Below are positions 9,882 through 60,934 of a DNA stretch of 64,000 nucleotides, one piece after another. The number at the start of each line of letters is the position of its first letter. Position 1 is the first letter of the stretch. This DNA is from Nitrospirales bacterium (GTDB lineage: Bacteria; Nitrospirota; Nitrospiria; Nitrospirales; UBA8639), in contig BQIW01000008.1 of the NCBI GenBank assembly GCA_021604105.1, positions 1 through 64,000 on the forward strand, read 5' to 3'. Under the pieces are notes generated by a model that was not told the origin of the DNA, searched no databases, and saw only the letters and a list, made by a program, of their open reading frames with translations. The translations under genes and the position numbers were made by a program.

Positions 9882-9897
9882 AGGACAATCGGAAATG

Positions 9898-11299: not shown

Positions 11300-11400
11300 G
11301 TTGAAGACTTACACGCTTTGATGCACACCGAACTCCCTTCCGCCCGGTCGCAGGTATTTGCTGGGCAGAGTCGTCCGGGCTCGCTTGATATCCCGCCGCT

Positions 11401-13759: not shown

Positions 13760-13837
13760 TCAGGGATTTGGACAAAATTGAACAAACGGAATGATGGTGC
13801 CTTTTCCTCAAGATTGCTCATGGTGTTCCTCCTCCTC

Positions 13838-13969: not shown

Positions 13970-14004
13970 CTGGAGGTACCTGCCGAATTGAGGGCCTGCG
14001 TGAG

Positions 14005-14036
14005 GTGACTCTCGTTTTTTCAGAAACGAGAGTCAC
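14005..14036 (-). terminator. Perfect 13-bp hairpin downstream of the peroxiredoxin gene
   Basis: GTGACTCTCGTTT and its exact complement AAACGAGAGTCAC are separated by a TTTCAG loop. The hairpin lies 18 bases beyond the stop of the minus-strand peroxiredoxin gene and is the likely transcript end, although no long T-run follows on that strand. Confidence 0.65.
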
Positions 14037-14053
14037 TAACCAGAGCCTCGCGT

Positions 14054-14620
14054 TCAAATTTTTCCGACAAGATCCAAGCCAGGTTTTAAGGTCTTATCGC
14101 CCGGTTTCCAATTAGCGGGACAGACTTCTCCTTTTTCTTCCCTGACGTGGACTGCTGCTTGAAGTTTTCTGAGTAATTCCCGGCCATTACGTCCGATGCT
14201 ATTATCGTGAATTTCTCCCACTTTCAGGATCCCGTCCGGATCGACCAGAAAACTCCCACGCAACGAAACGCCTTCATCTTCCAGATATGTTCCGAAATCA
14301 CGGCTGAGCCGGCCTGTGGGATCGGCGACCATGGGAAACTGAATATTTTTTATGGCAGGCGAGGTATCATGCCAGGCCTTATGTACAAAGACCGAATCCG
14401 TACTGACGCTAAGGACCTCAGCCCCGAGTTTTTGAAATTCCGGATACAGCTCCCCCAATTCTTGCAATTCGGTTGGACAAATAAACGTAAAATCGCCTGG
14501 ATAAAATACCAATACCAGCCATTTACCCCGGAATTCTGACAACACGAGAGAACGAATCTGTTCCTTGTGAAACGCCTGGTATGAGGCATCCGGGATCGTC
14601 TGTCCGATTTGCATCATCAT
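14054..14620 (-). CDS. 2-Cys peroxiredoxin (AhpC/TSA family)
   Basis: A 188-aa thiol peroxidase of the AhpC/Prx1 class. The peroxidatic Cys 48 is in DFTFICPTE and the resolving Cys 167 is in GEVCPANW. The catalytic Thr and Arg surroundings are present, with VADPTGRLSRDFG near 100. It reduces hydrogen peroxide and organic hydroperoxides in the cytosol; a dedicated AhpF is not in this window, so thioredoxin is the likely donor. The start is the first of three consecutive ATG codons after an AAGGAGGTCG site. It is divergent from the catalase gene across a shared 316-bp region, suggesting joint peroxide control. Confidence 0.92.
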   Translation of the reverse strand: MMMQIGQTIPDASYQAFHKEQIRSLVLSEFRGKWLVLVFYPGDFTFICPTELQELGELYPEFQKLGAEVLSVSTDSVFVHKAWHDTSPAIKNIQFPMVADPTGRLSRDFGTYLEDEGVSLRGSFLVDPDGILKVGEIHDNSIGRNGRELLRKLQAAVHVREEKGEVCPANWKPGDKTLKPGLDLVGKI

Positions 14621-14936
14621 GCTTTTCGACCTCCTTCATGGAAACGGTTTGAAATGTTTAGCACAAGTGGTTCAGAGCAAGCTTGGTCGTCTGTATGAAC
14701 TCCCAAACTCCGATTCTCGAGTCACTTAAACAAATCTTATCCCGGAATGCAAAAAGTTGTGACTGCCATGAACCCTTGCATAAAACGCTCCTGTTACCCA
14801 TAACAGTTTTTGAAATTTCTTACCAGGGTTTCTTACAGTGTGGCCTCTTCAATTGTTTCTATATGATAACTACTTTCGCGTCATCTGTTTAGTCACCCAT
14901 TCATCACGAACTCATCAATGTTAAGGAGCGATTCGC
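14621..14936. promoter_or_regulatory. Divergent promoter region between peroxiredoxin and catalase genes
   Basis: 316 bases that must carry both promoters. A short palindrome CTGTTA-CCCA-TAACAG at 14791-14806 is followed by TTTTTG. It could be an operator or a very small terminator. No known OxyR or PerR box was recognised with certainty. Confidence 0.45.
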
Positions 14937-17063
14937 ATGGCCAAAAAACAACCCACTAAATCTTCCCCTGCTTCCACCGGTAAAACCGCGAAATATGCTG
15001 ACCCAACTGTCGAGATCGGCACTGGAGGGGAAGTGCACCAGACAAGTGGAAAAACCAATCCGGTATTAACCACTCAGCAAGGCATTCCTGTCGCGGATGA
15101 CCAAAACTCGCTTAAAGTCGGAACGCGGGGTCCAAGCGCATTGGAAGACTTTCACTTTCGGGAAAAGATTTTTCACTTTGACCATGAACGGATTCCGGAA
15201 CGGGTCGTGCATGCCCGCGGGTTTGGGGCTCATGGGTATTTTGAAAATTACGAATCTCTGGCAGATGTCACAAGAGCCGACCTCTTTCAACGACCACGTG
15301 ATAAAACTCCTGCGTTTGTCCGGTTTTCAACCGTAGCCGGTAATAAGGGCTCCTTCGACTTGGCAAGAGACGTCCGGGGATTCGCCGTGAAGCTGTATAC
15401 CAAAGAGGGGAATTGGGATCTTGTGGGCAACAATATGCCCGTGTTTTTCATACAAGACGCTATGAAATTTCCAGACCTCGTTCACGCGGCCAAAGCGGAA
15501 CCGGATCGTGGCTTCCCCCAGGCGCAAACTGCGCATGATAACTTTTGGGACTTTATCTCTCTGACCCCCGAAAGCATGCACATGGTCATGTGGATCATGT
15601 CCGACAGAGCTATCCCCCGTTCCTTTCGTTTCATGGAAGGGTTTGGCGTGCACACATTCCGCCTGATCAATGGCCAGGGGAAATCGACGTTTGTAAAATT
15701 TCACTGGAAACCGAAACTGGGTATGCAATCGGTGGTCTGGAATGAAGCCGTGAAAATCAATGGTGCGGATCCGGATTTCCATCGCCGGGATTTATGGAGT
15801 GCCATTCAGCAGGGTGATTATCCGGAATGGGAACTGGGCCTCCAGCTTTTTGATGATGAATTTGCTCAACAATTCGATTTTGATGTGCTCGATGCCACCA
15901 AACTCATTCCAGAAGAAATTTTACCAATTCGCCGCGTAGGCCGGCTCGTTCTTGATCGCTGTGTGAACAATTTCTTTGCTGAGACCGAACAGGTCGCCTT
16001 TTGTACGCAAAATATTGTACCGGGCATTGATTTTTCAAATGATCCGCTATTACAAGGACGGAACTTTTCCTACCTCGATACTCAGCTCAAACGGCTTGGC
16101 AGTCCGAATTTCACTCACATACCCATCAATGCCCCCAAGTGTCCGTTCAGCCATTTTCAACAGGATGGCCATATGGCCATGCAGAATCCGCAAGGCCGTG
16201 CCAATTATGAACCCAATTCCTGGCCAGGCGAAACTGCCGGTCCCCGTGAATCACCGGAAAAAGGATTCACGTCTTATCCTGCAGAGGACGAAGGCCCGAA
16301 AGTCCGCCTTCGCTCTGAAACCTTTGCCGATCATTACAGCCAGGCCCGACAATTTTATATCAGTCAGACCGAGGTCGAACAAACACACATCGCAAACGCC
16401 TTAGTTTTTGAATTAAGCAAAGTGGAACATCTTGAGATACGGACTCGTATGGTTTCTCATTTACTGAATATCCACCAGGATCTGGCCAAAACGGTCGCCA
16501 AAGGATTGCGCATCCAGCAGATGCCAGCGCCCGCAGATGCGGCTAAACCGACCCAGGAGGATCTCCAAAGATCCCCGGCACTCAGCATTCTTCTTAATAG
16601 TCCCAAGACCTTCAAAGGGCGAAAGCTTGGCGTGCTCATCACCGATGGAGTCGATATGAAATTATTTAAATCGCTCAAAGCCGCCGTCAAGTCGGAAGGG
16701 GCGATTATGGAGATTGTGGCCCCCGGCGTAGGCGGAGTAGAAGCCAGCGACGGGACATGGATTGAAGCCGCCCAGAAAATCGATGGCGGCCCCTCGGTTT
16801 TGTATGACGCAGTAGCTCTCCTCCTTTCCGAGGAAGGAGGCCGGGCTTTAGCCAAAGAGCCGACGGCGAGGGATTTTGTGGCAGATGCCTTTGCGCATAT
16901 GAAATTTATCGGATATGTCGAAGCCGCGACTCCCCTCTTCGCAAAGGCAGGGCTGACAGATATGGACGGAGGAATGATCGCTCTTGACGGAAATAAAGGC
17001 ACCTCCAAATTCCTGGAAATGTGCCGGCATCTCCGATTCTGGGACCGCACCGCGGCTTCATGA
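14937..17063 (+). CDS. katE: Large-subunit monofunctional heme catalase (HPII/KatE type)
   Basis: A 708-aa catalase that disproportionates hydrogen peroxide. The catalytic His is in [11 protein letters not shown] near 92. The distal Asn lies in [18 protein letters not shown] near 165. The heme-ligating Tyr is in NFSYLDTQ near 380. After the core, a C-terminal flavodoxin/DJ-1-like domain (about 560-705, [13 protein letters not shown]) marks the large-subunit clade that includes E. coli HPII (about 750 aa). The N-terminal extension is Lys/Thr/Ser-rich, as in that clade. The start follows TTAAGGAGCG. It is divergent from the 2-Cys peroxiredoxin gene. Confidence 0.95.
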
Positions 17064-45073: not shown

Positions 45074-45376
45074 CTGCGCCTCCTTCCTCCATTCATGTTC
45101 CAAAAACCGCCTTCTGCTTTCTAGCGAATTTCGATGGAATCCACCACTATCAAAAACCCTTGAATGGGCAAACCCGGATTTCGTCTGACTCTAATCTGCC
45201 TGGATAGAGAGCGAAATGGATCGCAGCAGAGAGAATAGACAAAGTGGTATTGGACCTCCCTAATTTATCTATTTTAGTGAATGGGCTAGAAAACTACATT
45301 GAAGAAATCAACCGGTTTCATACGTGAATGTGAGTAAGAAGTTCATATGAATCAGCCGGAAACATGGAGAAACCAT
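45074..45376. other. Divergent intergenic gap, no gene seen
   Basis: 303 bases between the REC-like gene and a PRC-barrel gene. It should hold divergent promoters. No hairpin or frame of note. Confidence 0.4.
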
Positions 45377-45820
45377 ATGCCAACGACCTTTCAAATGTTT
45401 TTCTTCGTTTTCATTTTCTTCTTCACGCCCTTTGCCCAATCTGGAGCCTTTACTCAGGCCCAGGGCTCCTATAAAGCCAGTGAGCTTGTTGGAAAATCCG
45501 TTAAGAATCTGCAAGGCGAAGATATCGGGCAGATTGAAGAACTGGTCATAGGAAGCAATGGAGAAGTCGGGTATGCCGTTTTATCCTTTGGAGGATTTTT
45601 AGGTATGGGGGATAAGCTCTTTGCTGTACCGTGGGATTCGCTTGCCCACCAGCCGGATCAGGAGTATGTGACGCTGGATATTCAAACGAAAAAATTAGAA
45701 AAAGCACCAGGTTTTAATAAAAATGATTGGCCGGATATGAAAGATGAAAAGTGGAAAATTCTCATACGGGAATTCTACGCCACGCCCGATCCCATCCCTC
45801 ATAATTTCAATGCCCGGTAA
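45377..45820 (+). CDS. Exported PRC-barrel protein
   Basis: About 147 aa. A signal peptide (FFFVFIFFFTPFAQSGA, cleavage near residue 24) is followed by one PRC barrel, with LVGKSVKNLQGEDIGQIEEL near 37-56, a GEVGYAVLSFGGF strand near 62, and KLFAVPWDSL near 78. Periplasmic PRC barrels of this type occur in envelope-stress loci; function unknown. The ATG at 45377 follows TGGAGAAACC; an ATG at 45347 adds 10 polar residues and is possible. It precedes the respiratory operon by about 80 bases and need not be part of it. Confidence 0.78.
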   Translation: MPTTFQMFFFVFIFFFTPFAQSGAFTQAQGSYKASELVGKSVKNLQGEDIGQIEELVIGSNGEVGYAVLSFGGFLGMGDKLFAVPWDSLAHQPDQEYVTLDIQTKKLEKAPGFNKNDWPDMKDEKWKILIREFYATPDPIPHNFNAR

Positions 45821-45899: not shown

Positions 45900-46418
45900 A
45901 TGATGTTTGGAAAATTTAAGGGAGTCATCTTGGCCTTGTTAGCCGGAACTGTTGCCACGGGGATCGGGGCACTGTATTCCATCGGCAGTGCCGATCTGCC
46001 TGTTCAAGACAGACAACCTTTACGTTTTAGCCATCGACTGCATGCGGGAATATTGAACATACATTGTCAATTTTGTCATCGGTATGCCACGCACTCTCCA
46101 GTGGCGGGTGTGCCATCCGTGGCTCTGTGCCAGACGTGTCATGAGTCTCTTTCTGAAGCAACACCGGATATGAACATGTTACAGATTTATTGGAACGACA
46201 AACGACCGATTCCGTGGATCAGGCTTCAGCGTCTTCCGGATCATGTGTACTTCACGCATGAAATGCATCTGTTCGCGGGCCTGTCATGTGTCTCATGCCA
46301 TGGAAAGGTTGACCGCATGTCGGGCACCCCCAGAGCACCCACCTATGAAATGGGCTGGTGTTTGACCTGCCATGAACAACAGGGAGCCTCTCGGGATTGT
46401 TGGACCTGTCACAAGTAA
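45900..46418 (+). CDS. actA: ActA-like pentaheme cytochrome c of an alternative-complex-III-type operon
   Basis: 172 aa with an N-terminal anchor helix (about 7-27) and exactly five CxxCH heme motifs at residues 56-60, 77-81, 130-134, 154-158 and 167-171, plus extra His (HRLH near 45-48, HEMH near 120-123) that can be distal ligands. Heme number, size and first position in the operon match ActA of alternative complex III. It would be exported and carry electrons at the periplasmic face. The next gene starts 12 bases after its stop. Start codon: two adjacent ATGs at 45900/45903; the ribosome site is weak (ACGGGAATG). Confidence 0.88.
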   Translation: MMFGKFKGVILALLAGTVATGIGALYSIGSADLPVQDRQPLRFSHRLHAGILNIHCQFCHRYATHSPVAGVPSVALCQTCHESLSEATPDMNMLQIYWNDKRPIPWIRLQRLPDHVYFTHEMHLFAGLSCVSCHGKVDRMSGTPRAPTYEMGWCLTCHEQQGASRDCWTCHK

Positions 46419-46430
46419 AAGGACACACCA

Positions 46431-48626
46431 ATGGACCTATATCGACGGACCCTCTTTAAGATTCTTGGACTGACAGCAGCCGGTTCATCCCTGCCGGGCT
46501 GTGAGCGAGAAGTGCATAACCTTGTACCCTATCTGTTACCGGACGGGGATATCGTTCCCGGAGTGGCAAATTGGTATGCCACCACCTGCCAGGAATGCGA
46601 AGCCGGTTGCGGAACCATGGTTCGTGTCATGGAAGGACGCGCGAAAAAAATTGAAGGCAATCCCACGCATCCGGTCAACGAAGGGAAACTCTGTGCCCGT
46701 GGACAAGCCGCTCTTCAGGGGCTGTATAATCCCGACCGCCTTCAAGGCCCTCTAAGGCGTGAAGGCAAAAGAGGTCAAGGTCCATTCCGGCCGGTTACCT
46801 GGGAAGAAGGCCTATCAGAATGGGTGGAGCAAATACGCATACATGCCGGAAAGTCCGCCATGGTGACCCGTCCGGTGACCGGTACGTTAGCCAGCCTGTT
46901 GACAACGATGATGGATTCCCTATCCGGTCGTCTCGTGATGTACGAATCCACGGGGGAACAGACGCTCAGAACAGCCAACCATCTCAGCTTTGGAACCCAG
47001 GCCCTTCCCCATTATGACCTGGCGAATGCAGATTACCTTCTGTCATTCGGTACGCCATTCCTTGAACACTGGCTCTCACCGGTATCGTTTGGTGTGGCGT
47101 ATGGAAAATTCCGTCAGGGACGCCCCATGGTTCGAGGCCGCTTCATTCAGGTGGAGCCACGCCTGTCTCTCACCGCTTCAAATGCGGATCGATGGATTCC
47201 ACTCAGACCGGGCACCGAAGGCTTACTCGCAATGGGCATTGGACAGGTCTTATTACGGGATGGACTGACAAATCTTTCTTCTTCTCACCAGGCATCCTTT
47301 CACCGAACTTTTTCTGCTATCTCATTGCAAGCGATTTCGGCCGACACGGAAGTCCCGCAAGAGGTGATCACTCAAATGGCCCATGAACTGTCATCGGCAA
47401 ATGCTCCGCTTATTATGGGCGGGGGACCGGCCGCTGCCCAGACCAATGGCACCACAACGCTTATCCTCATTAATGCACTAAACGTAATGATCGGCGCTAT
47501 TGGACGGCGCGGGGGACTGCAGTGGATGGAACCTCAAGACCCGCCGGTGGATCTTGCCAACGCCGGGTTGGCCGGCGAACGCACGCTCATGGATTTGGCG
47601 ATGGAATTTGAACAAGGATCCCGCACATTGCTTCATTTGTATCGCGCCGATCCTCTCTTCACACTTCCACCGTCACTGAAGTTTGAGGGGGTGTTTGACC
47701 ATGCGCAGTTCATCGTCAGTTTCAGTCCCTTTCTTGATGACTCGACTTCGATGGCTGATCTGATTCTGCCGGATCATGACCCGCTGGAATCGTGGGGGGA
47801 TCATGTTCGACAGGATACGATCCCCGTGCCGGCCTGGAGTGTATCCCAACCTGTGGTGCGTCCACTCTATGACACTAAACCCATCGGTGATGTGTGGCTG
47901 GATGCCGCTCACCGATTGGGCGGATCTCTGGGTGAACGGGTCCCCTGGCATACCTTTCACGATCTGCTGAAAAGCCGGTGGCAGGCTGTCTTGACCAAGC
48001 ATGATTCACCACGCTCGTTTGAAACCCGCTGGAAAGAGACGCTGCAGGAAGGCGGCTTGTGGCCCTCTACCATTCCCCATCATCAGATTTCCCCGGCCAT
48101 TCCCTCCATCACCTATAAACCGCCGCAATTCCTGGGGAACTCCTCCGACTACCCTCTGTATTGTTATCCCTATCCCTCCCTGGGGTTGCATGATGGGCGA
48201 GGTGCCAATCGTCCCTGGCTTCAAGAATTGCCGGATCCTCTGACCACCGGTATATGGGGGAGTTGGATTGAACTTAATCCAACCACCGCACAGTCGTTAG
48301 GAATACATCCTGGCGACCGAGTCCGAGTCACGTCGGATTATGGATCGATCGAAGCATCCGTCATGATGTTTCCAGGCCTACATCCCGACATGATTGCCAT
48401 TCCCATGGGACAGGGACATCGTGCTTACGGACGATATGCCAAGGGGCGCGGCGTGAATCCCGTGGTACTACTTGGCCCAAACTATGATGAGCAATCAGGT
48501 TCTTTGGCCACTGGGGGGACGCGGGTCCGTGTTGAGCGTATCAAAGGGGGATCGCAATTGCCGATGTTGGAGCAATCCGGGAAAAACCCTGTCTTCGGGA
48601 ATTTACAGGAAACGGGAGGTTTGTAA
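46431..48626 (+). CDS. actB: ActB1-like molybdopterin-oxidoreductase-fold protein (separate from the Fe-S part)
   Basis: 731 aa. The N-terminus has twin Arg (RRTLFKILGL, residues 5-6) and a lipobox-like SLPGC at Cys 24, so Tat export and lipid anchoring are likely. Cys 53, 56, 60 and 88 form the C-x2-C-x3-C-x27-C pattern of a [4Fe-4S] cluster in this superfamily. The catalytic-fold region follows, with LLSFGTPFLEHWLSPVSFG near 205 and the C-terminal beta-barrel domain near 620-720 (LGIHPGDRVRVTSDYGSIEA). Motifs are those of ActB rather than a formate or nitrate enzyme; loss of the Mo site is inferred by family. In many complexes ActB is fused to the Fe-S protein, but here they are separate. 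Confidence 0.85.
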   Translation: MDLYRRTLFKILGLTAAGSSLPGCEREVHNLVPYLLPDGDIVPGVANWYATTCQECEAGCGTMVRVMEGRAKKIEGNPTHPVNEGKLCARGQAALQGLYNPDRLQGPLRREGKRGQGPFRPVTWEEGLSEWVEQIRIHAGKSAMVTRPVTGTLASLLTTMMDSLSGRLVMYESTGEQTLRTANHLSFGTQALPHYDLANADYLLSFGTPFLEHWLSPVSFGVAYGKFRQGRPMVRGRFIQVEPRLSLTASNADRWIPLRPGTEGLLAMGIGQVLLRDGLTNLSSSHQASFHRTFSAISLQAISADTEVPQEVITQMAHELSSANAPLIMGGGPAAAQTNGTTTLILINALNVMIGAIGRRGGLQWMEPQDPPVDLANAGLAGERTLMDLAMEFEQGSRTLLHLYRADPLFTLPPSLKFEGVFDHAQFIVSFSPFLDDSTSMADLILPDHDPLESWGDHVRQDTIPVPAWSVSQPVVRPLYDTKPIGDVWLDAAHRLGGSLGERVPWHTFHDLLKSRWQAVLTKHDSPRSFETRWKETLQEGGLWPSTIPHHQISPAIPSITYKPPQFLGNSSDYPLYCYPYPSLGLHDGRGANRPWLQELPDPLTTGIWGSWIELNPTTAQSLGIHPGDRVRVTSDYGSIEASVMMFPGLHPDMIAIPMGQGHRAYGRYAKGRGVNPVVLLGPNYDEQSGSLATGGTRVRVERIKGGSQLPMLEQSGKNPVFGNLQETGGL

Positions 48627-49363
48627 TGAGTCAAGATCTTCAAGCAACGAAAGAGTATTCAACAAAGGCGGCATCATCCTATAAATGGGAAATGGTCGTC
48701 GATCTGGACCGGTGTTCCGGTTGTGAAGCCTGTGTCGTCGCGTGCCATGCCGAAAACAATATTCGCATTTCCGGGGAGAAGGAAGCGTCCGAAGGGCGGG
48801 CGATCAATTGGATTCGCATTGAGCGGTATTGGGAAGGAGACTATCCCGACGTGAAAGTCAAATTCCTTCCGGTGATGTGCCAACATTGTGACGATGCCCC
48901 CTGTGAACCAGTCTGTCCCGTTTATGCATCGTATCACACCCCTGAAGGGTTGAATGCCCAAGTCTATAATCGTTGTATCGGCGTTCGTTACTGCGGAAAT
49001 AACTGTCCCTATGTCGCCCGTCAATTTAATTGGTTTGATCCCCATTGGGATGAGCCCTTGGCGGATCAGTTAAATCCGGATGTGTCGGTCCGATCCGGCG
49101 GTGTGATGGAAAAATGCACCTTTTGCGTGCAACGAATTCGAAGTGGAAAGGAAGTGGCTCACAAAGAAGGACGCCGGGTCAGGGATGGAGAAATCACACC
49201 CGCCTGTGTGCAATCCTGTCCAACAGCCGCCCTGATTTTTGGGGACCGGAATGATCCCGACAGCCGGGTATCTCATTTAACGAAGAGCCGGAGGGGATTT
49301 CATCTGATGGAATCTCTGGGTACGCACCCGGCCGTCACGTATTTGCGGAGGCTGTCGGAATGA
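48626..49363 (+). CDS. actB: ActB2-like four-cluster Fe-S protein
   Basis: 245 aa with four Cys groups as in DmsB/NrfC/ActB2: C30-x2-C-x2-C-x3-C40 (DRCSGCEACVVAC), C85-x2-C-x4-C-x3-C97 (CQHCDDAPCEPVC), the CIGVRYCGNNCPY group at 117-127, and C164, C167, C194 and C198 (CTFC...CVQSC). The third group has only three Cys visible, fitting the [3Fe-4S] centre of ACIII. It conducts electrons between cytochrome and membrane parts. The start overlaps the previous stop (TAATG), a tight coupling. Confidence 0.9.
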   Translation: MSQDLQATKEYSTKAASSYKWEMVVDLDRCSGCEACVVACHAENNIRISGEKEASEGRAINWIRIERYWEGDYPDVKVKFLPVMCQHCDDAPCEPVCPVYASYHTPEGLNAQVYNRCIGVRYCGNNCPYVARQFNWFDPHWDEPLADQLNPDVSVRSGGVMEKCTFCVQRIRSGKEVAHKEGRRVRDGEITPACVQSCPTAALIFGDRNDPDSRVSHLTKSRRGFHLMESLGTHPAVTYLRRLSE

Positions 49364-50688
49364 CCGACCGGCCAACGGTTTGGGAGGAAATGCCCAAGAT
49401 CAATCGGGACCTTCTCGCGCCCCTCCAGACGACCACCTGGACCTATTTTCTCTGGGTAGGAGTGTTGTCCTGCTTGGTCGCAGCAGGCGCCGGAGCATGG
49501 ACTTTCCAAATTCAAACCGGGATCGGACAAACCGATCTGCATCACCCCATTTTCTGGGGATCCTATATTGCCTCCTTCGTCTTTTGGATCGGCGTCAGCC
49601 ATTCCGGAACGTTTATTTCCGGTGTCTTGCGATTAACGAATGCGGAATGGCGTCGACCCGTCACACGACTGGCTGAGCTCATGACCGTCGTGGCTCTTCT
49701 TGTCACCGCGTTATTCGTCTTTTATCACCTTGGTCGGGTCTGGCGGTTTTATTACCTGATTCCATACCCCAATCAACGGGAACTCTGGCCGAACTTTCGA
49801 TCTCCGCTCATGTGGGATGCAACAGCCATTTTTACGTATGCAACCGCAAGCACCATTTATATATATCTACCCTTAATTCCCGATTTTGCGCTCGCCCGGG
49901 ATCGAATTCACGGATGGAGAAAAACCGTGTATCGCTGGTTGGCAATCGGATGGCATGGATCTCAGGCCCAATGGCGCACATTGGAAATGGCCATACGCAT
50001 TATCACGCCCTTGATCGTGATGGTCATGATTTCGGTGCATTCCATTGTCGGATTTGATTTCGGCATGGCTCTCGTGCCGGCATGGCATTCGACTATTTTC
50101 GCACCCTATTTTGTGGTCGGCGCGGTGCATTCAGGTCTCGGTATGGTGATGATTGGTCTCTACGTTCTGCGGAAGGTATATCACTTGCACAATTATGTTC
50201 GAACCGAACATTTTGAGAAACTCGGGAAGTTGTTGCTCGTCACGACCCTGCTCCTGGCCTATATGTATTTTGCGGAACAGTTAACTGTCTGGTATGGCAA
50301 GGTGCCCGACCATATTGCCGTGCAGCATTCTCTCCTCTACGGAGCGTATGCCGTGCCGTTCTGGTTTATGGTGAGTTGTATTTATGTCATTCCCCTGCTG
50401 ACGCTGGTATGGCCTCGTTTTCGACAATGGCCGGTAGGACTCATGATAGTAGGCCTGATCATCAATATCGGCATGTATATCGAGCGCATGCTGATCATTG
50501 TCCCTCCCCTTGCCCATCCAAGGCTGTCATTTCAGTGGGATGAATATTTCCCTTCGCTGATTGAGTTCGTCATTCTAGTCGGAACGTTGGCCCTGGCTCT
50601 CTTGTTGTACTCCCTTGCCGTGAAATTCGTACCGGTCATTTCAATTTGGGAAGAAAAACTGGGGAAAAAACATGCCCCAAAACGCTGA
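49360..50688 (+). CDS. actC: ActC-like NrfD-family membrane subunit
   Basis: 442 aa with about ten membrane helices, NrfD/PsrC type, the putative quinone-binding subunit. Recognisable parts are the SHSGTFISGVLRL segment near 85-97, YHLGRVWRFYYLIPYPN near 122, and HSIVGFDFGMALVPAWHSTI near 227-246 with conserved His. ACIII has two such subunits, ActC and ActF; only this one is present here. The start ATG overlaps the preceding stop (ATGA), and its 3' end overlaps the next gene by 17 bases. Confidence 0.92.
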   Translation: MTDRPTVWEEMPKINRDLLAPLQTTTWTYFLWVGVLSCLVAAGAGAWTFQIQTGIGQTDLHHPIFWGSYIASFVFWIGVSHSGTFISGVLRLTNAEWRRPVTRLAELMTVVALLVTALFVFYHLGRVWRFYYLIPYPNQRELWPNFRSPLMWDATAIFTYATASTIYIYLPLIPDFALARDRIHGWRKTVYRWLAIGWHGSQAQWRTLEMAIRIITPLIVMVMISVHSIVGFDFGMALVPAWHSTIFAPYFVVGAVHSGLGMVMIGLYVLRKVYHLHNYVRTEHFEKLGKLLLVTTLLLAYMYFAEQLTVWYGKVPDHIAVQHSLLYGAYAVPFWFMVSCIYVIPLLTLVWPRFRQWPVGLMIVGLIINIGMYIERMLIIVPPLAHPRLSFQWDEYFPSLIEFVILVGTLALALLLYSLAVKFVPVISIWEEKLGKKHAPKR

Positions 50689-51220
50689 CACGGCGGAGAG
50701 ACACGTGGTGCTGGGATTCTTCGATCCAACGACTTCTCTCCCTCCTGTGCTTGATCAAATACGAAACCAGGGTATTCCCGATATTTTTATGGAAATTCTC
50801 TCCCCTCTTCCACTGGAAACCGCGTTGCTTAATAAACCGGTTCGCATTCCCCTTTATCGCCTGACCATTATCGGAGGGATCGTCGGAATTGGAGTCGGAA
50901 TATTTTTTGCCGCAGGAACCGCACTCTTGTTTCCCTTAGTGACCGGAGGGAAACCTATTGTGAGTATTCCGGTGGTGGGGATTATTTCCTATGAAACCAT
51001 GATGCTGATGGCGATTGCCGTGACCTTTGTAGCGACAGCGATCAACATTGCCTTCGTGCAACAGTCGGGCCTTCGCAATGACCCGCGCATTGATGAGGGA
51101 TCGGTAGGTTTGTCGATTCAGGTTGGGAACGACACGGCCAAGGCCCACTCCATTTCCCGTCTGCTTCAACAAGCCGGAGCTTCTGAAGTGGAAATACGGA
51201 CCATAGCCAGTGACTCATGA
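50672..51220 (+). CDS. actD: ActD-like DUF3341 subunit
   Basis: 182 aa with a soluble N-terminal alpha/beta domain (VVLGFFDPTTSLPPVLDQIR) and two membrane helices near 70-92 and 105-130 (IGGIVGIGVGIFFAAGTALL, IISYETMMLMAIAV). This is the DUF3341 protein found in all ACIII operons as ActD, a cytoplasmic-side accessory subunit. It starts 17 bases inside actC. The next gene begins 12 bases after its stop. Confidence 0.9.
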   Translation: MPQNADTAERHVVLGFFDPTTSLPPVLDQIRNQGIPDIFMEILSPLPLETALLNKPVRIPLYRLTIIGGIVGIGVGIFFAAGTALLFPLVTGGKPIVSIPVVGIISYETMMLMAIAVTFVATAINIAFVQQSGLRNDPRIDEGSVGLSIQVGNDTAKAHSISRLLQQAGASEVEIRTIASDS

Positions 51221-51232
51221 GGGTCGAGGAAG

Positions 51233-51748
51233 ATGCTGAACCATTTTGCGTTGAACCGCTCCTACCGTTCCATGGGTTGGATCATAGTGGCAGGACTGTT
51301 TCTGTGGGGATGTTCGAACGAGATGGAAGAACAACCTTCGTATTCGTATCAAGAAGCTCCCCGCGTGCATTCGCCGCCGGAAAGCACGCCGCATATGACG
51401 CCATTTTCCTTTGCGACATCTCCGCTGGAACACACTAAAAATCCAATCGATGGCGCATGGCTCTTTGCTATTAATTGCACGCATTGTCATGGACGGGAGG
51501 GAATGGGGGACGGACCGGTGGCCGGGTATTTGCCGGACCTGCCTCCCAATCTTCACGCTTCGGCGGTACAACAAAAACCGGATAAAGTGCTGTATACCAT
51601 TATAACCCATGGCGAAAACGTCATGCCCGCGTTTGAACCATTTCTCTCTCAGGAAGAAAGATGGGCCTTGGTGAAATTTCTTCGGACCTTTCCCGATCAG
51701 GCGCCATCCTCCATTCCCTTGACGCAGAAACCGAATCCGCCAGGTTAA
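51233..51748 (+). CDS. actE: ActE-like monoheme cytochrome c lipoprotein
   Basis: 171 aa. The N-terminal helix ends in a lipobox (LFLWGC, Cys 27). One heme motif is CTHCH at 82-86, and the axial Met is in VMPAF at about 131. The pattern is that of a class I cytochrome c anchored at the outer face of the membrane. In ACIII the ActE subunit transfers electrons to a terminal oxidase or soluble carrier. It starts 12 bases after actD. Confidence 0.88.
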   Translation: MLNHFALNRSYRSMGWIIVAGLFLWGCSNEMEEQPSYSYQEAPRVHSPPESTPHMTPFSFATSPLEHTKNPIDGAWLFAINCTHCHGREGMGDGPVAGYLPDLPPNLHASAVQQKPDKVLYTIITHGENVMPAFEPFLSQEERWALVKFLRTFPDQAPSSIPLTQKPNPPG

Positions 51749-51776
51749 TTGACGCATCTCTGGAAATGTGGTGAGC

Positions 51777-52952
51777 ATGATGACGAGTTCCAGTTTTTGG
51801 ATCGGCTTTTTCAGTTTGGCCCATATCACCCTGGCGAGCCTTGGGGTGGGATTCATGGTTCTGGCTCCCATCGCGGAAGGACTGGGGCGCCGTCACCCCT
51901 ATTTTACGGATTTTGCGTATTTGGTCACACGATTTACATTGGTGACGTATACCACCAGCATCGTGTTGGCTGTCTTTATGCTGGAATTATTCATCGGGCT
52001 TTTCCCTCTCACGAATAGCTACCTCTTTAACCACTTTCGCTATCCTTTGCATCTGGCCTTGATCGTGTTTTTCATTCAAGTGTTGTGTCTGTATCCCTAT
52101 TATCACTTTTGGGATCGGCTTCGTTCGAAAAGTGTCACGTGGCATATGACGTTGGGAACGGTAGCCGCCGTATTCATTCTGATATGGGGAGGAATTCTTG
52201 ACGGGATCGGCTCATTCATGATGACTCCTGTGGAAGGCGATAATGGATGGGCAAGGCTTTGGAACCCCACATGGGTACCCCTGATGGTCCATCGTTTCTT
52301 TGGAAACCTGGTCATCGCCGGATACGTCATGGCGACGTATGCCGGATGGCGTCTTTGGAATCAATCAGGTCAAAAGAAGGATGAGGACTATTACCTCACG
52401 CTCCTGAAAACAGGCATCGCCATCGGCATTGTGAGCCTGATGATTCAGCCGGTTTCCGGTTTCGTATTCGCGCAACACATACAGAATGCACAACCGGATG
52501 TCCTGCAGGAACTCTATGAAGGCCCAACGGTCCTGTTAGTGATATGGCAATTCACCCTCTTGGCCCTGCTCCTGTTGGGCAGTCATCTCATTTTTCGCCC
52601 GGTGCATCTCGAACGGGGCCATTCGTATTGGGCAGAGGGATTTTATGTGCTGATGGTCGTGTTGATGGTCGTGCTGGCGCCATATCCGTTCTACCGTCGT
52701 CTCGTGAATGGTATCGTGCTTCTTCAGACGGGTTGGTATCTTTTGCATGTGTTTCCTGTGTGGATGCATGGCTCAACGCCCTCACTCAACAAGCCGTTCA
52801 TTCATGGTATCGCCATGACCCTAGGTCTGGCCGCGCTGGTACTCTATTTGACAATGGGAACCATCCGGGAAGTGGCGAGAGGGCCTGATACCATTCATGG
52901 AATGATCAACAGTCAGACGGAAGCCGCGTTTAGAGGTGAAACCTTCCCATGA
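51777..52952 (+). CDS. Cytochrome-bd-like oxidase subunit I homologue, copy 1 (lacks the paired Glu)
   Basis: 391 aa, nine or so helices, clearly shorter than canonical CydA because the quinol-binding Q-loop is missing. His 16 (SLAHITLA) matches CydA His 19. His 172 (MVHRFFGNL) matches CydA His 186. The segment corresponding to the CydA Glu 99/Glu 107 helix reads HLALIVFFIQV, so both glutamates are absent. The C-terminal MGTIREVARGP resembles a motif of this lineage. The GTG nine bases upstream is a weaker alternative start. It follows actE by 28 bases and overlaps the next gene (ATGA). Confidence 0.82.
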   Translation: MMTSSSFWIGFFSLAHITLASLGVGFMVLAPIAEGLGRRHPYFTDFAYLVTRFTLVTYTTSIVLAVFMLELFIGLFPLTNSYLFNHFRYPLHLALIVFFIQVLCLYPYYHFWDRLRSKSVTWHMTLGTVAAVFILIWGGILDGIGSFMMTPVEGDNGWARLWNPTWVPLMVHRFFGNLVIAGYVMATYAGWRLWNQSGQKKDEDYYLTLLKTGIAIGIVSLMIQPVSGFVFAQHIQNAQPDVLQELYEGPTVLLVIWQFTLLALLLLGSHLIFRPVHLERGHSYWAEGFYVLMVVLMVVLAPYPFYRRLVNGIVLLQTGWYLLHVFPVWMHGSTPSLNKPFIHGIAMTLGLAALVLYLTMGTIREVARGPDTIHGMINSQTEAAFRGETFP

Positions 52953-54313
52953 CTCTTGAACCCCTTGAAACTTCTATGTCCGTCGGGCGGGTGGCGATTG
53001 CCGCCTCTGCCCTGACGCATAGCCTCTTTGCCACGTTCATTGTGGGATCCTCCCTAATCGGTGCGGTGACAGCGACCTGGAGCTATATAACGGGAAAGGC
53101 CTGGCTACTCAGGTTGGCCAAGTTGATTGCGTTTGCCTTGGTGCTTTCCACTGCAACCGTGTCATTTTTTGGCGTCGTGCTCGTGGTTGCTCTGAACATC
53201 TATTGGCCTCAATTTTGGCATCGCCTGTTTCATGTGATGTTCTGGCCGTTTTTAGGAGAGGCGGCGTTATTTTTGGGGGAGGCGATATTTGCGTATGCCT
53301 GGTATTACCTTTGGGAATGGGGTCGGCATGGATGGAGACAAAAAGTGCATTTGGCATTTGTGTGGCTTGCCGCAGGCTGTGCCTTAAGTGCCATGCTTTT
53401 GATCGATATCACCGCTTCCTATATGTTGACGCCCCATCCGGTTTATGCCGCATGGGAAAACGTTTTCAATCCCACCATGATTCATCTTGATCTTCACCGG
53501 TGGTTTGGCAATCTGACCTGGGCGGGTTTTGCCCTGGCGGGCATCTGTGCCGTAGGTTATTTGAAATCGACAACCGAGACCGATCGAAATTTTTTCCAAA
53601 AAGCAGGAAGTTTCTGTTTTTTGATTGGTTACGGAGCCTTGCTGGTCATGCCGGTGGTGGGATATCAATATTTGCTTCATTTGCGTTATGGGCAACCCCA
53701 GGCGTTTTATACCGTGATGTTAGGAGAACGCTCGTGGCTTTTTGATGTCGTTGCGTTGTTGTACGGATTATTAATGCTGGTCGGTTCTTTATATGTTATT
53801 CAGATGGTTCGGTCGCTATCAAAACCACCTCCCTCTTTCACCGGATTTATTCCCCTTTCATTCACTGTCACCGTAATCGCTGCGATGATGTTGGCGATGC
53901 CCTATCAATTGCAGCATATCCCTCTTCTCAATGATTTAACCGATCAGGAAATTAATCCGTTAGGAAAGATGCAGCCGTATAAATATTTTGCGCTTTCGGG
54001 ACTTGTTATTTTTGGTGTAGGACATTGGATCTATTCCGTGCGTGTCTTTGGTCGAATGCCCCCTGCCACCGCCTCGAGTATCGACACCGGAACTCCACGA
54101 AGACGGATGGCGGGTTTGTTGATGACGTTGGCAGGTTTGACGGTGATCATTCTGTTAGCCATGGGATGGGTCCGCGAATCTGCCAGAGCGGTCAACGGGT
54201 ACCTTATTTATGATGTGATGCGGTTGGAGGACGAGAAATCGACGTATCAAGCCTCTCCCTCCGATAATGGTATCCTTTCGCAGGAGATTCCTTACGACCC
54301 CTTTGAACGATAA
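52949..54313 (+). CDS. Cytochrome-bd-like oxidase subunit I homologue, copy 2 (keeps Glu residues)
   Basis: 454 aa with about ten to eleven helices, no Q-loop. His 24 (ALTHSLFA) matches CydA His 19; His 183 (DLHRWFGNL) matches CydA His 186. Glu 104 and Glu 111 (FLGEAALFLGEAIF) lie where CydA has its functional glutamates, unlike copy 1. The C-terminal MGWVRESARAVNG matches the motif of copy 1. This copy is the better candidate for an oxygen-reducing heme site. The start overlaps the stop of copy 1 (ATGA), so the whole series from actA is one transcript. Confidence 0.82.
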   Translation: MTLEPLETSMSVGRVAIAASALTHSLFATFIVGSSLIGAVTATWSYITGKAWLLRLAKLIAFALVLSTATVSFFGVVLVVALNIYWPQFWHRLFHVMFWPFLGEAALFLGEAIFAYAWYYLWEWGRHGWRQKVHLAFVWLAAGCALSAMLLIDITASYMLTPHPVYAAWENVFNPTMIHLDLHRWFGNLTWAGFALAGICAVGYLKSTTETDRNFFQKAGSFCFLIGYGALLVMPVVGYQYLLHLRYGQPQAFYTVMLGERSWLFDVVALLYGLLMLVGSLYVIQMVRSLSKPPPSFTGFIPLSFTVTVIAAMMLAMPYQLQHIPLLNDLTDQEINPLGKMQPYKYFALSGLVIFGVGHWIYSVRVFGRMPPATASSIDTGTPRRRMAGLLMTLAGLTVIILLAMGWVRESARAVNGYLIYDVMRLEDEKSTYQASPSDNGILSQEIPYDPFER

Positions 54314-54837
54314 TCCCTTCTTTCATGTTCCACGTAAGGGCAGAGTCTTCGCCGGTGGCAAGTCCGGCATTGGCGGTCAAGAGATGTCATAGTCTAACAA
54401 GATAAAGATGTGACCTGGTGAAAGACGATAGATTTCCTAACCGCGTCATAACGGAAGCGGATGTTGTGAGAGAAAAATCATAACCAACCTGTTTTTTATC
54501 TCTCTACCCACTGAGGAAGAATGACTGACACAGAGGTCATACTATCCTTGACGATCATGTTGCCCTCCTTTGTATTTTTCAAGGGGGCTTTCTTTTACCC
54601 AATCCTTCTCTTAATCAACCTGCACCGATGGTGTCTTCCCACGCAAACGTCACGGGACGAACCTTTTACAAACCCTGGTCTTTACGTTGTTGTCTATCAT
54701 CACAAACCAGACTGACCATAATTTTTTCGTATCCTGGTGACTGACCGTGGGGTTTCTGGAAGAATGGTGTTTTTTAATTTTCCAAGACAGTCGAATACAT
54801 TACGCTTGTCCGTCATACCGGGTGGGAGGAGTCGCAC
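54314..54837. other. Intergenic region before mgtE
   Basis: 524 bases after the respiratory operon. Apart from the hairpin listed at 54562 no gene is supported; a 64-codon frame at 54521 spans that hairpin. I looked for an M-box-like Mg riboswitch before mgtE and cannot recognise one. Confidence 0.4.
54562..54596 (+). terminator. Possible rho-independent terminator
   Basis: GCCCTCCTTTG pairs imperfectly with CAAGGGGGC across TATTTTT, followed by TTTCTTTT. The T-rich tail on the plus strand suits termination of the upstream transcript about 250 bases after the operon or attenuation ahead of mgtE. Confidence 0.45.
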
Positions 54838-57344: not shown

Positions 57345-58811
57345 ATGCAGATGGAAAACTTTGTTCTACAAGGCCGCATACGGCTTCTGTTATGGATAAT
57401 GTTCGTGATGCTCACCCTGCCATCCGTTGGTTTGGGCAAAGTGGACCAAAATGTCATTACGGACAAGGATATTACCGTCGCAATTGAAAGCCGTTTCCTC
57501 GTCGATCCGACTGTCCCCTCAGATGGTATTGATGTCCATACGGATAATGGAGTCGTCATGTTGTCGGGAGAGGTCCCTACGCTGCTGGCCAGAGAGCGTG
57601 CAGGAAAAATCGTAGCCAGCATTCGAGGGGTTCAAGCCCTTATAAATATCATCGGGGTGAACCCTACCAGCCGGATTGGCGATAAAGAACTACGATCCAA
57701 GGTATTCGCGGCATTAGCCGCAGATCCGGCATCCGACTCGTATGAAATCACCGTACAAGTTGATCAGGGTCGAGTCATGCTGACTGGAACAGTAGAAAGT
57801 TGGCAGGAAAAGCAACTGACTGAGGAAGTGGTCAAATCAGTGAAAGGGGTTCAGTCTCTCAAGAGCCGGATCACCGTTAACCCGATGACTTCTCGTCCCG
57901 ACTCCGAAATCGAGGCGGAAATTTTCCGTCGCCTTCAATCCGACGTATGGGTCCATGAAAGCCTTATCGGCATCATGGTCGACCAGGGGCATGTCACATT
58001 AACCGGTACGGTGGGGAGTCTGGCTGAAAAGAATAGCGCGTATACAGATGCCTGGGTGGGCGGAGTCAAGGAGGTAAACGTGGCCCCACTCAAAGTTAAA
58101 TGGTGGGCACGGGACCGCATGCTTCGTCATCGCAAAGAAGCGTTGACATCAAACACCCATACAGCAGAGGCCATACGAACCGCCTTCCGATATGAGCCTC
58201 GCCTTCAGGAGGTTGAAATCGCCGTTCGTGTGGTCGACGGAACCGCTTTCCTTGTCGGGATTGTGAATAACCTGGCGGCTAAATACGCTGCGGAAAAGAT
58301 AACACGGAATACGGAAGGTATTTGGCGGGTACGCAGCTTCATTAAAGTTCGTCCTCCCGTGCGACTTGCTGATCGCGAACTGGAAAAACAAGTCCGTGAA
58401 GCCTTCAATCAGCATCCTCTCATTGACAGCTACGAAATTAAGGTTTCAGCCAATAGTGGAAACGTGTCTCTCGAGGGATACCTCAACTCTCCAACCGAAA
58501 TTTCCCAAACCGTTCGAACCGCGGCAAGAGTCAAGGGTGTCATCGATATCACGAATTACCTCCAAATCCAATCGCCGGGAAAATTGGATGAAGATATTTG
58601 GGAAGAGATCAGACGTGCGTTGTGGTGGGATCCTGATCTGTATGACCAGGATATTACGGTTACCGTATCCAATGGCATCGTCACCCTGAAGGGAACGGTT
58701 CCCTCCCTCGTGGAATGGAGACGAGCCAGAGACGTCGGGCGGAATTCCGGAGCCGAACGGGTTCGTAATCGTTTAACCGTGCGGTATGGTCCGGATTTTC
58801 ATTCAACCTGA
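57345..58811 (+). CDS. Exported protein with six BON domains, copy 1
   Basis: 488 aa. A signal peptide (about residues 10-32, IRLLLWIMFVMLTLPSVGLG) is followed by six BON domains of about 68 residues each. Each has a DxxI helix, a strand like VHTDNGVVMLSGEV, VQVDQGRVMLTGTV or VTVSNGIVTLKGTV, then a helix and a (V/G)xGVxxxxxx closing strand. Domain 2 has ESWQEKQ and domain 6 LWWDPDLYDQDITV. Multi-BON proteins likely bind membranes or outer-membrane components during osmotic stress. The gene at 59447 has the same architecture. The start has two nearby ATGs (57345, 57351). Confidence 0.85.
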   Translation: MQMENFVLQGRIRLLLWIMFVMLTLPSVGLGKVDQNVITDKDITVAIESRFLVDPTVPSDGIDVHTDNGVVMLSGEVPTLLARERAGKIVASIRGVQALINIIGVNPTSRIGDKELRSKVFAALAADPASDSYEITVQVDQGRVMLTGTVESWQEKQLTEEVVKSVKGVQSLKSRITVNPMTSRPDSEIEAEIFRRLQSDVWVHESLIGIMVDQGHVTLTGTVGSLAEKNSAYTDAWVGGVKEVNVAPLKVKWWARDRMLRHRKEALTSNTHTAEAIRTAFRYEPRLQEVEIAVRVVDGTAFLVGIVNNLAAKYAAEKITRNTEGIWRVRSFIKVRPPVRLADRELEKQVREAFNQHPLIDSYEIKVSANSGNVSLEGYLNSPTEISQTVRTAARVKGVIDITNYLQIQSPGKLDEDIWEEIRRALWWDPDLYDQDITVTVSNGIVTLKGTVPSLVEWRRARDVGRNSGAERVRNRLTVRYGPDFHST

Positions 58812-59220: not shown

Positions 59221-59446
59221 TTGAGGAATAAGACTGAAATGGATGCAGTGTTAGCAGACCTGGAAGTCACCTATGCCGAAACATTCCCCCTCCTCCAGGA
59301 CAGACGTCGATCTGAAAAATTTGCAACGGAATAGGGGAAAAAGGTCGAAAGGATTGATTTTTAAAAAACACATTGGCCGCAAAAAAAGCCCATCACTTAC
59401 AAACCAGAAAGGGGTTGACTCCAACCTTGTGAGGGAATTACACCTG

Positions 59447-60934
59447 ATGCCACCACTCCTTTTCAACAGCCCTACAATCACACAAGCCTCGATGGTGAGT
59501 GTCGTTGTCCTGACCGGCATTTTCCTTTTGTGGCCTCTCGCAAGAGGCGCAGAACAAGAACGGCTTATGATGATGGAAGGAGAAATGATCCTGGCCATCG
59601 AAGACCGGCTGGCCCGAGACGAACTTGTACAGGAAAATCTGATTGATGTTGTCAGCGAACAAGGCATTGTCACGCTGCTGGGCGAGGTGGACAACATCCT
59701 GGCCAAGGAACGGGCAGCAGCCCTGACAGGAACCATCAAGGGGGTGCGCGGTGTCATTAATCAAATACTCGTGAATCCATCGAATACTCATAAGGATCAG
59801 GAAATTGAAGAACAGGTGAAATCGGCCTTATTAGAAAACCCCGCGACGGAACTGTATGACATGAATGTAAGAGTCACAGACGGTCGTGTGACCCTAACCG
59901 GCACCGTTCAATCCTGGCAGGAAAAACAATTGGCCTTTCAGGTGGCGAAAGGAGTCGAAGGAATCATAGACATTCAGGATAAGCTGGCGGTCCTCACCGT
60001 CAGGAATCGTTCTGATAACGCCGTTAAACAAGAAATTTTGCAACGCCTGCATCATGATGTGTGGATTAACCCATCATCCGTGATGATAACCGTTCGGGAT
60101 GGACAGGTCACAGTTTCCGGTGCCGTGAGAAGTGTTGATGAGAAATCCAGGATTATCTCGCTGTCCTGGGTGCATGGCGTCACGTCCGTCAATGGAGAAC
60201 ACCTGAAGGTAGAATGGTCGGACCGTAAACCCATGCGGCGTTCAGGCTTTCACATACCATCCGATGAGACCATCCAAAATGCCATCTATGATGCGCTTTC
60301 CTATGACCCCAGGATAACCAATGCGGATATCACGATTGAAGTGGAGGAGGGACTCGTCACACTTACCGGTATCGTCGATAACCTCCAAGCCAAGACCACT
60401 GCCGAAGAAGATACCTGGAATACTACCGGCGTCTACAATGTCATTAACCTCTTAAAAGTACGCATGAACCCAAATTATTCCGATGAAAATATTGCCGCAC
60501 GCGTCAAGGAGGTATTTCTCCATGATCCCTTGCTTGATCATAAGGACATCATGGTCCGTGTCAATAATCAGGCTATCTCCCTGAAGGGTACGGTAAAGTC
60601 ACGATCTCAGAAATCACGGGCAGAGTTACTCGCCTCCCGTGTTAAAGGTGCGACAACTGTGAATAACCGTCTGAAATATGCGGTTGAGTGGCAGGATAAG
60701 TCCGATCCTGAACTTCGACAGAATATCAAAGACCAACTATGGTGGAGTCCTTTTTTATCTGATCACTCCATCTCTGTCCAGGTTGAAAATGGGGTCGCGA
60801 CGCTGATGGGTTTTGTTCAGAGTTGGCAACAACGTTCCCTCGCAGAAGAACATGCCTTTGTCGCAGGAGCCAGATTTGTTCACAATCGATTACAAGTGGA
60901 CCCTTCAAGTCAGATTCCCCATTTAACGCAGTAA
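59447..60934 (+). CDS. Exported protein with six BON domains, copy 2
   Basis: About 495 aa from this start (553 aa from an ATG at 59273). The chosen start puts a signal peptide (MVSVVVLTGIFLLWPLARGA) at the N-terminus. The longer form would bury it behind 58 basic residues. Six BON domains follow in the same order as copy 1: domain 1 VVSEQGIVTLLGEV, domain 2 VRVTDGRVTLTGTVQSWQEK, domain 3 ITVRDGQVTVSGAV, domain 4 IEVEEGLVTLTGIV, domain 5 VRVNNQAISLKGTV, domain 6 VQVENGVATLMGFV. Shared local motifs (QSWQEKQ, DQLWWSPFLSDHSISV) show duplication of the entire gene. Confidence 0.82.
   Translation: MPPLLFNSPTITQASMVSVVVLTGIFLLWPLARGAEQERLMMMEGEMILAIEDRLARDELVQENLIDVVSEQGIVTLLGEVDNILAKERAAALTGTIKGVRGVINQILVNPSNTHKDQEIEEQVKSALLENPATELYDMNVRVTDGRVTLTGTVQSWQEKQLAFQVAKGVEGIIDIQDKLAVLTVRNRSDNAVKQEILQRLHHDVWINPSSVMITVRDGQVTVSGAVRSVDEKSRIISLSWVHGVTSVNGEHLKVEWSDRKPMRRSGFHIPSDETIQNAIYDALSYDPRITNADITIEVEEGLVTLTGIVDNLQAKTTAEEDTWNTTGVYNVINLLKVRMNPNYSDENIAARVKEVFLHDPLLDHKDIMVRVNNQAISLKGTVKSRSQKSRAELLASRVKGATTVNNRLKYAVEWQDKSDPELRQNIKDQLWWSPFLSDHSISVQVENGVATLMGFVQSWQQRSLAEEHAFVAGARFVHNRLQVDPSSQIPHLTQ

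Follow-up and report, generated by a model that had tools for sequence, protein, structure and literature searches.

The window analysed here is a stretch of 64,000 nucleotides from a Nitrospirales bacterium (contig BQIW01000008.1, assembly GCA_021604105.1). Positions 45900–54313 carry eight genes which, judged by their sequences, form an alternative complex III (ACIII)-type module (ActA, B1, B2, C, D and E) followed by two CydA-like proteins. The features are as follows.

45347–45820, plus strand: PRC-barrel protein, 157 aa (PF05239, E 4e-12), 79 nt upstream of ActA
45900–46418, plus strand: ActA, pentahaem cytochrome c, 172 aa (5 CxxCH; matches ACIII subunit A)
46431–48626, plus strand: ActB1, molybdopterin-fold protein, 731 aa (PF04879, PF00384, PF01568)
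48626–49363, plus strand: ActB2, four-cluster Fe-S protein, 245 aa (15 Cys)
49360–50688, plus strand: ActC, NrfD-fold membrane subunit with quinone site, 442 aa (PF03916, E 2e-25)
50672–51220, plus strand: ActD, 182 aa (PF11821, E 1.9e-21)
51233–51748, plus strand: ActE, monohaem cytochrome c, 171 aa (1 CxxCH; lipoprotein-like N terminus)
51768–52952, plus strand: CydA1 (CydA'-like), 394 aa (PF01654; GTG start as listed)
52949–54313, plus strand: CydA2 (CydA-like, presumed catalytic), 454 aa (PF01654)
54565–54587, plus strand: terminator-like stem, weak (8 pairs, followed by a T-rich tail)

The earlier note described eight closely packed genes on one strand, and all eight reading frames were recovered as such. 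Four junctions overlap (ActB1/ActB2 by 1 nt, ActB2/ActC by 4 nt, ActC/ActD by 17 nt, CydA1/CydA2 by 4 nt), and the other three (ActA/ActB1, ActD/ActE, ActE/CydA1) have gaps of 12–19 nt. The spacing, together with the conservation of the cluster, suggests a single transcript. Neither promoter-like sites (11 versus 12.3 in shuffles) nor terminator-like sites (14 versus 13.2) are in excess in the region. For CydA1, several relatives have starts that agree with an ATG at 51780, and in 8 relatives the ActE reading frame runs on continuously from ActD. The PRC-barrel gene lies upstream of ActA in the related loci L023–L026 and 1.4 kb off in L028, and it was unmatched in the compared loci L029, L036 and L070–L079. 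Its product is probably outside the complex.

ActA matches subunit A of solved ACIII structures (8k9e_A, 6f0k_A (among the best), 6btm_A and 6lod_A), and its five CxxCH motifs are kept in 18/18 sequences. Contig ends remove ActA and part of ActB1 from L022 and L027, and L023 is without ActE onward. The single CxxCH of ActE is found in 20/20 sequences; the first match of ActE is 6h5l_B and the second 6f0k_E, and 6lod_E was also matched. ActD matches the solved chain 6lod_D at E 0.16 only. Each of the 15 Cys of ActB2 occurs in 19 or 20 of 20 sequences, and position 120 is Val in 19 of them and Ser in one. Based on the cluster-motif list of PMC8076601 (Table 1), ActB2 is expected to hold three 4Fe-4S clusters and one 3Fe-4S cluster.

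ActB1 keeps Cys 24, 53, 56, 60 and 88 in 18/18 sequences, that is, a four-Cys cluster motif plus Cys24. Its N-terminal RR motif is possibly a Tat signal, and Cys24 possibly a lipid anchor. By phmmer the arsenate reductase ArrA (6cz7_A, E 1.6e-52) comes ahead of the ACIII subunit (6f0k_B, E 2.3e-36). A Gly of ActB1 is aligned to the ArrA Cys which we take to be the Mo ligand, and no conserved residue stands at that expected position. In alignments the four-Cys motif is absent from the ActB of Rhodothermus marinus and Flavobacterium johnsoniae. It is not special to the present cluster, as it is also found in ActB1 of other Nitrospirota act loci.

ActC is close to the corresponding chain of a solved ACIII (6f0k_C, E 1.3e-85). 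Compared with the published lists (PMC8076601, Table 2), it keeps 4/4 quinone-site residues and 18/19 ion-channel residues (13/13 on the N-side and 5/6 on the P-side), and a His occupies the position of R. marinus Glu338. The absence of ActF, to which a second set of proton half-channels is ascribed in the available text of PMC5928083, had been claimed from the locus, and it holds for the genome as assembled. PF03916 and an ActC profile (E<=1e-3) found one NrfD gene and no second one, so an ActF elsewhere in the assembled genome was rejected. As a control, a similar ActC profile finds ActF in three other Nitrospirota loci. L029, L036 and L070, whose ActC frames are interrupted, were left out of the control profile, and ActC profile A5 took 10 of the 20 ActC sequences. 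Because the genome is incomplete (96.44% complete, 217 contigs), an ActF could lie inside a gap. By its gene content, the Act module is the published ActF-less variant of ACIII rather than the canonical six-subunit complex.

CydA1 and CydA2 match PF01654 with E-values of 1.4e-13 and 1.6e-16, in both cases only over about positions 3–243 of the 418-position model. Their predicted folds are nearest to CydA chains, with Z 29.3–32.8 for CydA1 and Z 24.1–27.2 for CydA2. The CydA2 values come from VIA alignments, used in place of Foldseek superpositions with rmsd near 20 or more, and the CydA2 model is of moderate quality (pLDDT 74.6). In CydA1, H19, H175 and E368 are present in 19/19 sequences and both residues of the acidic pair are lost; L075, whose extracted CydA1 ran into CydA2 over a stop, was left out of these counts. 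In CydA2, H24, E104, E111, H183, M341 and E410 are present in 20/20 sequences, and H24, E104, E111 and H183 are aligned with identical residues in the two canonical CydA proteins of the genome. E410 and M341 may be haem ligands. With the acidic pair kept in CydA2 only, the two subunits appear non-equivalent.

The earlier note also had two short bd-like proteins lacking the Q-loop in the place of the oxidase. Consistently, QPxK....E was found in 0/20 CydA2 and 0/20 CydA1 sequences, compared with 2/2 canonical CydA. No CxxCH motif exists in CydA1 or CydA2, and thus ActA and ActE are the nearest encoded c-haem donors. No CydB is to spare, since both CydB genes of the genome adjoin canonical CydA genes on other contigs; a pairing of CydA1 and CydA2 with an unlinked CydB was rejected on the same ground. 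Two adjacent CydA-like subunits without a quinol site are a feature of OR-N CydAA'. The pair is a candidate member of OR-N5 by the synteny that it shares with the cluster of PMC12342949.

The residues of CydA2 also bear on its substrate. NO and peroxide can serve as substrates of bd-type enzymes. With such activity in the family, CydA2 could reduce one of these instead of O2, or only carry electrons, so that the pair would be a detoxifying outlet for quinol electrons; the OR-N family is called yet uncharacterized in the available text of PMC10839748 (2024). We regard this as very unlikely, because CydA2 retains the two acidic residues and the two His of canonical CydA, in contrast to five long bd-like proteins encoded in this genome, which have Tyr at the first acidic residue and keep the second.

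The gene order was the same in relatives wherever the contig extends far enough, as the synteny check proposed for this locus called for, and a chance arrangement is excluded because of this conservation. The CydA2 clade was found in 16 of 395 sampled genomes of the phylum (E 1.9e-164 or better; next match 1.6e-35), and 15 of these 16, but no other of the 395, have the near ActC clade (E 2.6e-200 or better); for both counts, no more than four candidates were scored in each genome. In the sixteenth genome (G364) the contig begins inside ActE. L031 begins inside CydA1 and is of no use for act-gene linkage. A Candidatus Manganitrophus genome (L036, with interrupted frames) also carries all eight genes, arranged identically. 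The contig scan for relatives relied on two short peptide patterns, by which distant ones may be missed, and we do not claim that the cluster is restricted to Nitrospirota. Among 15 genomes (2 of them with interrupted ActC frames), the distances of one subunit correlate with those of another at 0.669 to 0.955, but genome relatedness alone would account for much of this. Within the genus, ActD is found in 7/20 genomes, some of them incomplete, and the operon is accessory.

Taken together, the operon probably encodes a quinol:oxygen path in which an ActF-less ACIII is combined with a CydAA'-type bd-like oxygen reductase. The quinol-to-O2 link put forward in the earlier note is thus likely, judging from the intact quinone site of ActC and the retained His and Glu of CydA2. 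Quinol would be oxidised at the periplasmic site of ActC, where the residues are present. Electrons would then pass by way of one ActB2 cluster to the five ActA haems and the ActE haem, as modelled on solved ACIII. From ActE or ActA they would reach the CydA2 haem that lies beside the quinol loop in canonical bd, with a c-type haem docking where the quinol-binding Lys/Glu motif is gone. This donor step is uncertain, because ActE is dispensable for electron transfer to aa3 in F. johnsoniae (as given in PMC8552683). CydA2 would reduce O2 through its conserved His and Glu residues. CydA1 would be a structural partner in the place of CydB, and may bind haem since both His are kept. Energy could be conserved through ion movement in ActC together with the uptake of protons where oxygen is reduced. 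With an NxrA-like protein in its genome (match to 7b04_B, 1549.6 bits), the organism probably oxidises nitrite; the electrons served would be those entering at quinone level, from formate, hydrogen or stored carbon, and not those of nitrite itself. Counted against this path are the missing ActF, the His for Glu338 in ActC, the greater nearness of ActB1 to ArrA, the moderate CydA2 model and the accessory nature of the operon.

Whether the two parts are joined is a separate matter. By analogy to the ACIII–caa3 supercomplexes (reported in PMC5928083), it is plausible that the Act proteins and CydA1/CydA2 form one physical complex. Two separate complexes on one transcript are a possible but doubtful alternative: ActABCDE would reduce a soluble cytochrome c and CydA1A2 would oxidise any cytochrome c, including that of nitrite oxidation, with regulation shared and not a physical complex. 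ACIII is able to reduce soluble carriers according to PMC5928083, the dispensable ActE of F. johnsoniae speaks for flexible partners, and the Nitrospinota OR-N bd-like oxidases are thought in PMC10839748 to take cytochrome c. However, CydA2 always occurs with act genes where the contig reaches, and a free cytochrome c oxidase needs no such linkage.

A more specific form of the one-complex arrangement is unlikely, namely that CydA1 takes the seat of ActF by ActC, that both CydA-like subunits bind haem, and that the eight proteins are one quinol:O2 oxidoreductase. If true, an ion-moving NrfD subunit would be coupled to a bd-type oxygen site without free cytochrome c. The CydA1 model does align to ActF chains (Z 18.5–19.5 over 287–290 residues), but this likeness is generic, because the similarity of CydA/CydB to PsrC is already in print (PMC4602095). 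The replacement of ActF is further weakened by other act loci, since 5 of the 8 that can be judged show neither an ActF nearby nor a CydA-like pair (L094, L095, L096, L098 and L099; L100 ends just past ActC and is outside this judgement). In L095, haem-copper oxidase genes stand in the place of the CydA pair next to an ActF-less act cluster.

Reverse electron flow, also raised in the earlier note, found no specific support and is quite unlikely. Here ActC would pass electrons from cytochrome c to quinone and spend the ion gradient for CO2 fixation. A probable nitrite oxidiser would need such a step, the ion-channel residues of ActC are conserved, and PMC3578206 suggested a role of this kind for bd-like proteins. 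But a minority of the genomes sampled from the family and the phylum carry the cluster, a Candidatus Manganitrophus genome carries it too, bc1 is reported (main text of PMC12342949) from almost every Nitrospirales genome, and reverse flow needs no oxygen-reducing unit with an intact acidic pair.

The quinol:oxygen path matters for two questions, namely whether cytochrome c can feed a bd-type enzyme and whether a working ACIII can do without ActF. OR-N-type enzymes are proposed as the main terminal oxidases of nitrite oxidisers, and the present cluster is a clean test case, with the likely donor (ActA/ActE) encoded alongside and the quinol-binding motif gone.

The gene arrangement itself is already known. 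The main text of PMC12342949 (ISME J 2025) describes Nitrospirales actABCDE clusters in which B is divided into B1 and B2 and both ActF and ActG are lacking; directly downstream follows a bd-like oxygen reductase of the CydAA' 'OR-N5' type. ACIII is given there for 47 genomes, with the oxidase downstream in 'almost all' of them, and that text shows no difference from the present cluster. Among cultured Nitrospira, the ACIII is reported for N. marina (PMC8115632). The residue tests, the co-occurrence counts and the ActF-less L095 cluster with haem-copper oxidase genes are added by the present analysis. PMC9040806, in its available text, describes bd-like complexes of Manganitrophus (TO_3 / TO_4) that include complex III or ACIII-like parts, and L036 agrees with the present cluster in all eight genes and their order. 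The ActA–ActE anatomy and the ActC quinone site are shared with the ACIII of R. marinus and F. johnsoniae, which, as described in PMC5928083 and PMC8552683, transfers electrons directly to an aa3-type oxidase; in R. marinus the oxidase genes lie downstream, and electrons go straight to caa3 with no soluble carrier (PMC5928083). Unlike these, the present cluster has no ActF, a split ActB and a bd-like pair replacing the haem-copper oxidase. Canonical cytochrome bd (CydAB) shares the CydA fold and the His and Glu conserved in CydA2, whereas the quinol-binding Lys/Glu motif and CydB are absent here and a second CydA-like subunit is found instead. The menaquinone reductase Qrc (QrcABCD) has the same building blocks and its NCBIfam models match, but with scores under the cut-offs (92.2/180, 315.4/440, 251.8/400, 43.9/570), so a Qrc complex was rejected; compared with Qrc, the present cluster has ActD, ActE and the oxidase pair in addition.

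The eight-gene set described in the earlier note was recovered at 45900-54313 of the window, with all genes on the + strand: ActA, ActB1, ActB2, ActC, ActD and ActE of alternative complex III (ACIII), followed by two CydA-like proteins, CydA1 and CydA2 (the pair is also written CydAA'). ActA has five c-haem motifs and ActE has one, and no CxxCH motif was found in CydA1 or CydA2. In eight relatives (L070-L072 and L075-L079), one uninterrupted ORF spans ActD and ActE, which reads as a natural fusion of both subunits. A PRC-barrel gene (45347-45820) lies directly upstream of ActA; it is kept in several same-family relatives and has no match in the more distant ones compared. Two nearby proteins (57345-58811 and 59273-60934) contain six BON-domain stretches apiece.

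ActD is present in 9 of the 48 genomes of the family, the window's own counted. In seven of the other eight, the act genes are followed by CydA1-CydA2 in order, and the contig of the remaining one (L023) stops at ActD. The phylum sample provided the CydA1-CydA2 pair in eleven further genomes, ten of which have all eight genes in order; the contig of the eleventh (G364) begins in ActE. The eight genes also keep this order, with interrupted frames, in a Candidatus Manganitrophus genome (L036). L031, whose contig begins inside CydA1, was left out of the order comparison. When 395 Nitrospirota genomes were sampled for the CydA2 and ActC clades, with at most four first-look candidates scored per genome, the CydA2 clade was found in 16 (E 1.9e-164 or better; next match 1.6e-35) and the near ActC clade in 15 (E 2.6e-200 or better), every one among the 16. 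More distant ActC (E 5.5e-148 to 1.3e-114) was found in nine more genomes, none among the 16.

The absence of ActF, the second NrfD subunit of canonical ACIII, also held, since PF03916 gives a single NrfD gene in the genome (96.44% complete). The 16 genomes carrying CydA2 were searched with an ActC profile (E<=1e-3), and exactly one ActC was found in 14 of them. The two matches in G019 are pieces of one interrupted ActC, and no match was obtained for G364, the genome whose contig begins inside ActE. No CydB was spare, as both CydB genes adjoin canonical CydA (contigs C11 and C105).

The pair had further been proposed to lack the Q-loop. Consistently, the canonical motif QPxK....E was found in 0/20 CydA2, 0/20 CydA1 and 2/2 canonical CydA. 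A Lys and a Glu of the Q-loop are reported to be required for quinol binding or to be involved in it (PMC8951039, PMC9846854). CydA2 His24, Glu104, Glu111, His183, Met341 and Glu410 are each present in 20/20 sequences, and the first four align with identical residues in both canonical CydA of the genome. In CydA1, His19, His175 and Glu368 are kept in 19/19 sequences, the first acidic position is Ala or Gly, and the second is Gln, Leu or Met. H19 and H186 are named as haem ligands of E. coli CydA (PMC4602095) and by alignment would correspond to the two conserved His of the CydA-like proteins. The best fits of the structure models (pLDDT 74.6 for CydA2 and 83.2 for CydA1) were canonical CydA chains (Z 24.1-27.2 and 29.3-32.8, respectively), and the next-best were NrfD-fold ACIII chains (Z 17.7-19.5, 287-291 residues, rmsd 3.6-4.1). 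CydA and CydB had earlier been reported to resemble PsrC (PMC4602095), so the likeness to the NrfD fold is generic.

Scored with the residue list of PMC8076601, the window ActC keeps 4/4 quinone-site residues, 13/13 N-side and 5/6 P-side channel residues. It has His in place of R. marinus Glu338, and across 20 ActC rows, some partial, this position is His in 16, Glu in 3 and a gap in 1. ActB2 has 15 Cys, and the sixteenth position is Val (19) or Ser (1) in 20 sequences. This pattern fits the three 4Fe-4S clusters and the single 3Fe-4S cluster that are tabulated for ACIII in PMC8076601. The four-Cys motif of ActB1 (Cys 53, 56, 60 and 88) is kept in 18/18 sequences and is missing from the ACIII of R. 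marinus and F. johnsoniae in the alignments. In phmmer searches, ActB1 was nearer to the arsenate reductase ArrA (6cz7_A, E 1.6e-52) than to ACIII ActB (2.3e-36). No conserved residue of ActB1 aligns with the ArrA Cys that we take to be the Mo ligand.

The window's genome comprises 4.9 Mb in 217 contigs (completeness 96.44%). UBA8639 is treated as the family of lineage IV Nitrospirales in PMC12342949; therefore the organism most likely belongs to this lineage. It is likely a nitrite oxidiser, because contig C25 encodes a 1146-aa protein matching nitrite oxidoreductase subunit A (7b04_B, 1549.6 bits). On the same contig, the NxrA-like gene adjoins a long bd-like protein (724-aa ORF; L103:703-6694), one of five in the genome with Tyr at CydA2's first-Glu position.

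In the simplest reading, quinol would be oxidised at ActC, electrons would go to ActA and ActE, and oxygen would be reduced at CydA2. ActE is dispensable in F. johnsoniae (PMC8552683), so ActA may alternatively serve as the donor. Without the quinol loop, the haem that is reached from quinol in canonical enzymes might lie exposed. In R. marinus, direct ACIII-to-caa3 transfer and a supercomplex were reported (PMC5928083).

The arrangement of the cluster has already been described in Nitrospirales (PMC12342949), and TO_3 and TO_4 of Candidatus Manganitrophus are described as bd-like complexes that contain complex III or ACIII-like components (PMC9040806). To this, the present analysis adds a test of individual residues, counts of co-occurrence and a haem-copper counterpart. 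As a positive control for the ActF search, a similar ActC profile was run on nine other Nitrospirota act loci, those of the genomes with more distant ActC, and ActF was detected in three (L097, L101 and L102; E 5.1e-16 to 8.1e-30). Profile search of the neighbourhoods found no nearby ActF at L094, L095, L096, L098 and L099; L100 ends just past ActC and is outside the tally. Therefore, clusters with CydAA' are not alone in lacking ActF. L098 also has another molybdopterin/Fe-S pair (12023-14977) a few kb away from its act genes and on the other strand; this pair is divergent and matches ActB1 (E 3e-45) and ActB2 (E 2.3e-13). The act genes of L095 (genome G394, 2324-12865), where B is split and no ActF was found within 18 kb, run from ActA through B1, B2, C and D to E and are followed by SCO1, COX1 and COX2-cytochrome c genes. 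Such an act module can also adjoin a haem-copper oxidase, whose genes occupy at L095 the place that CydAA' has in the window.
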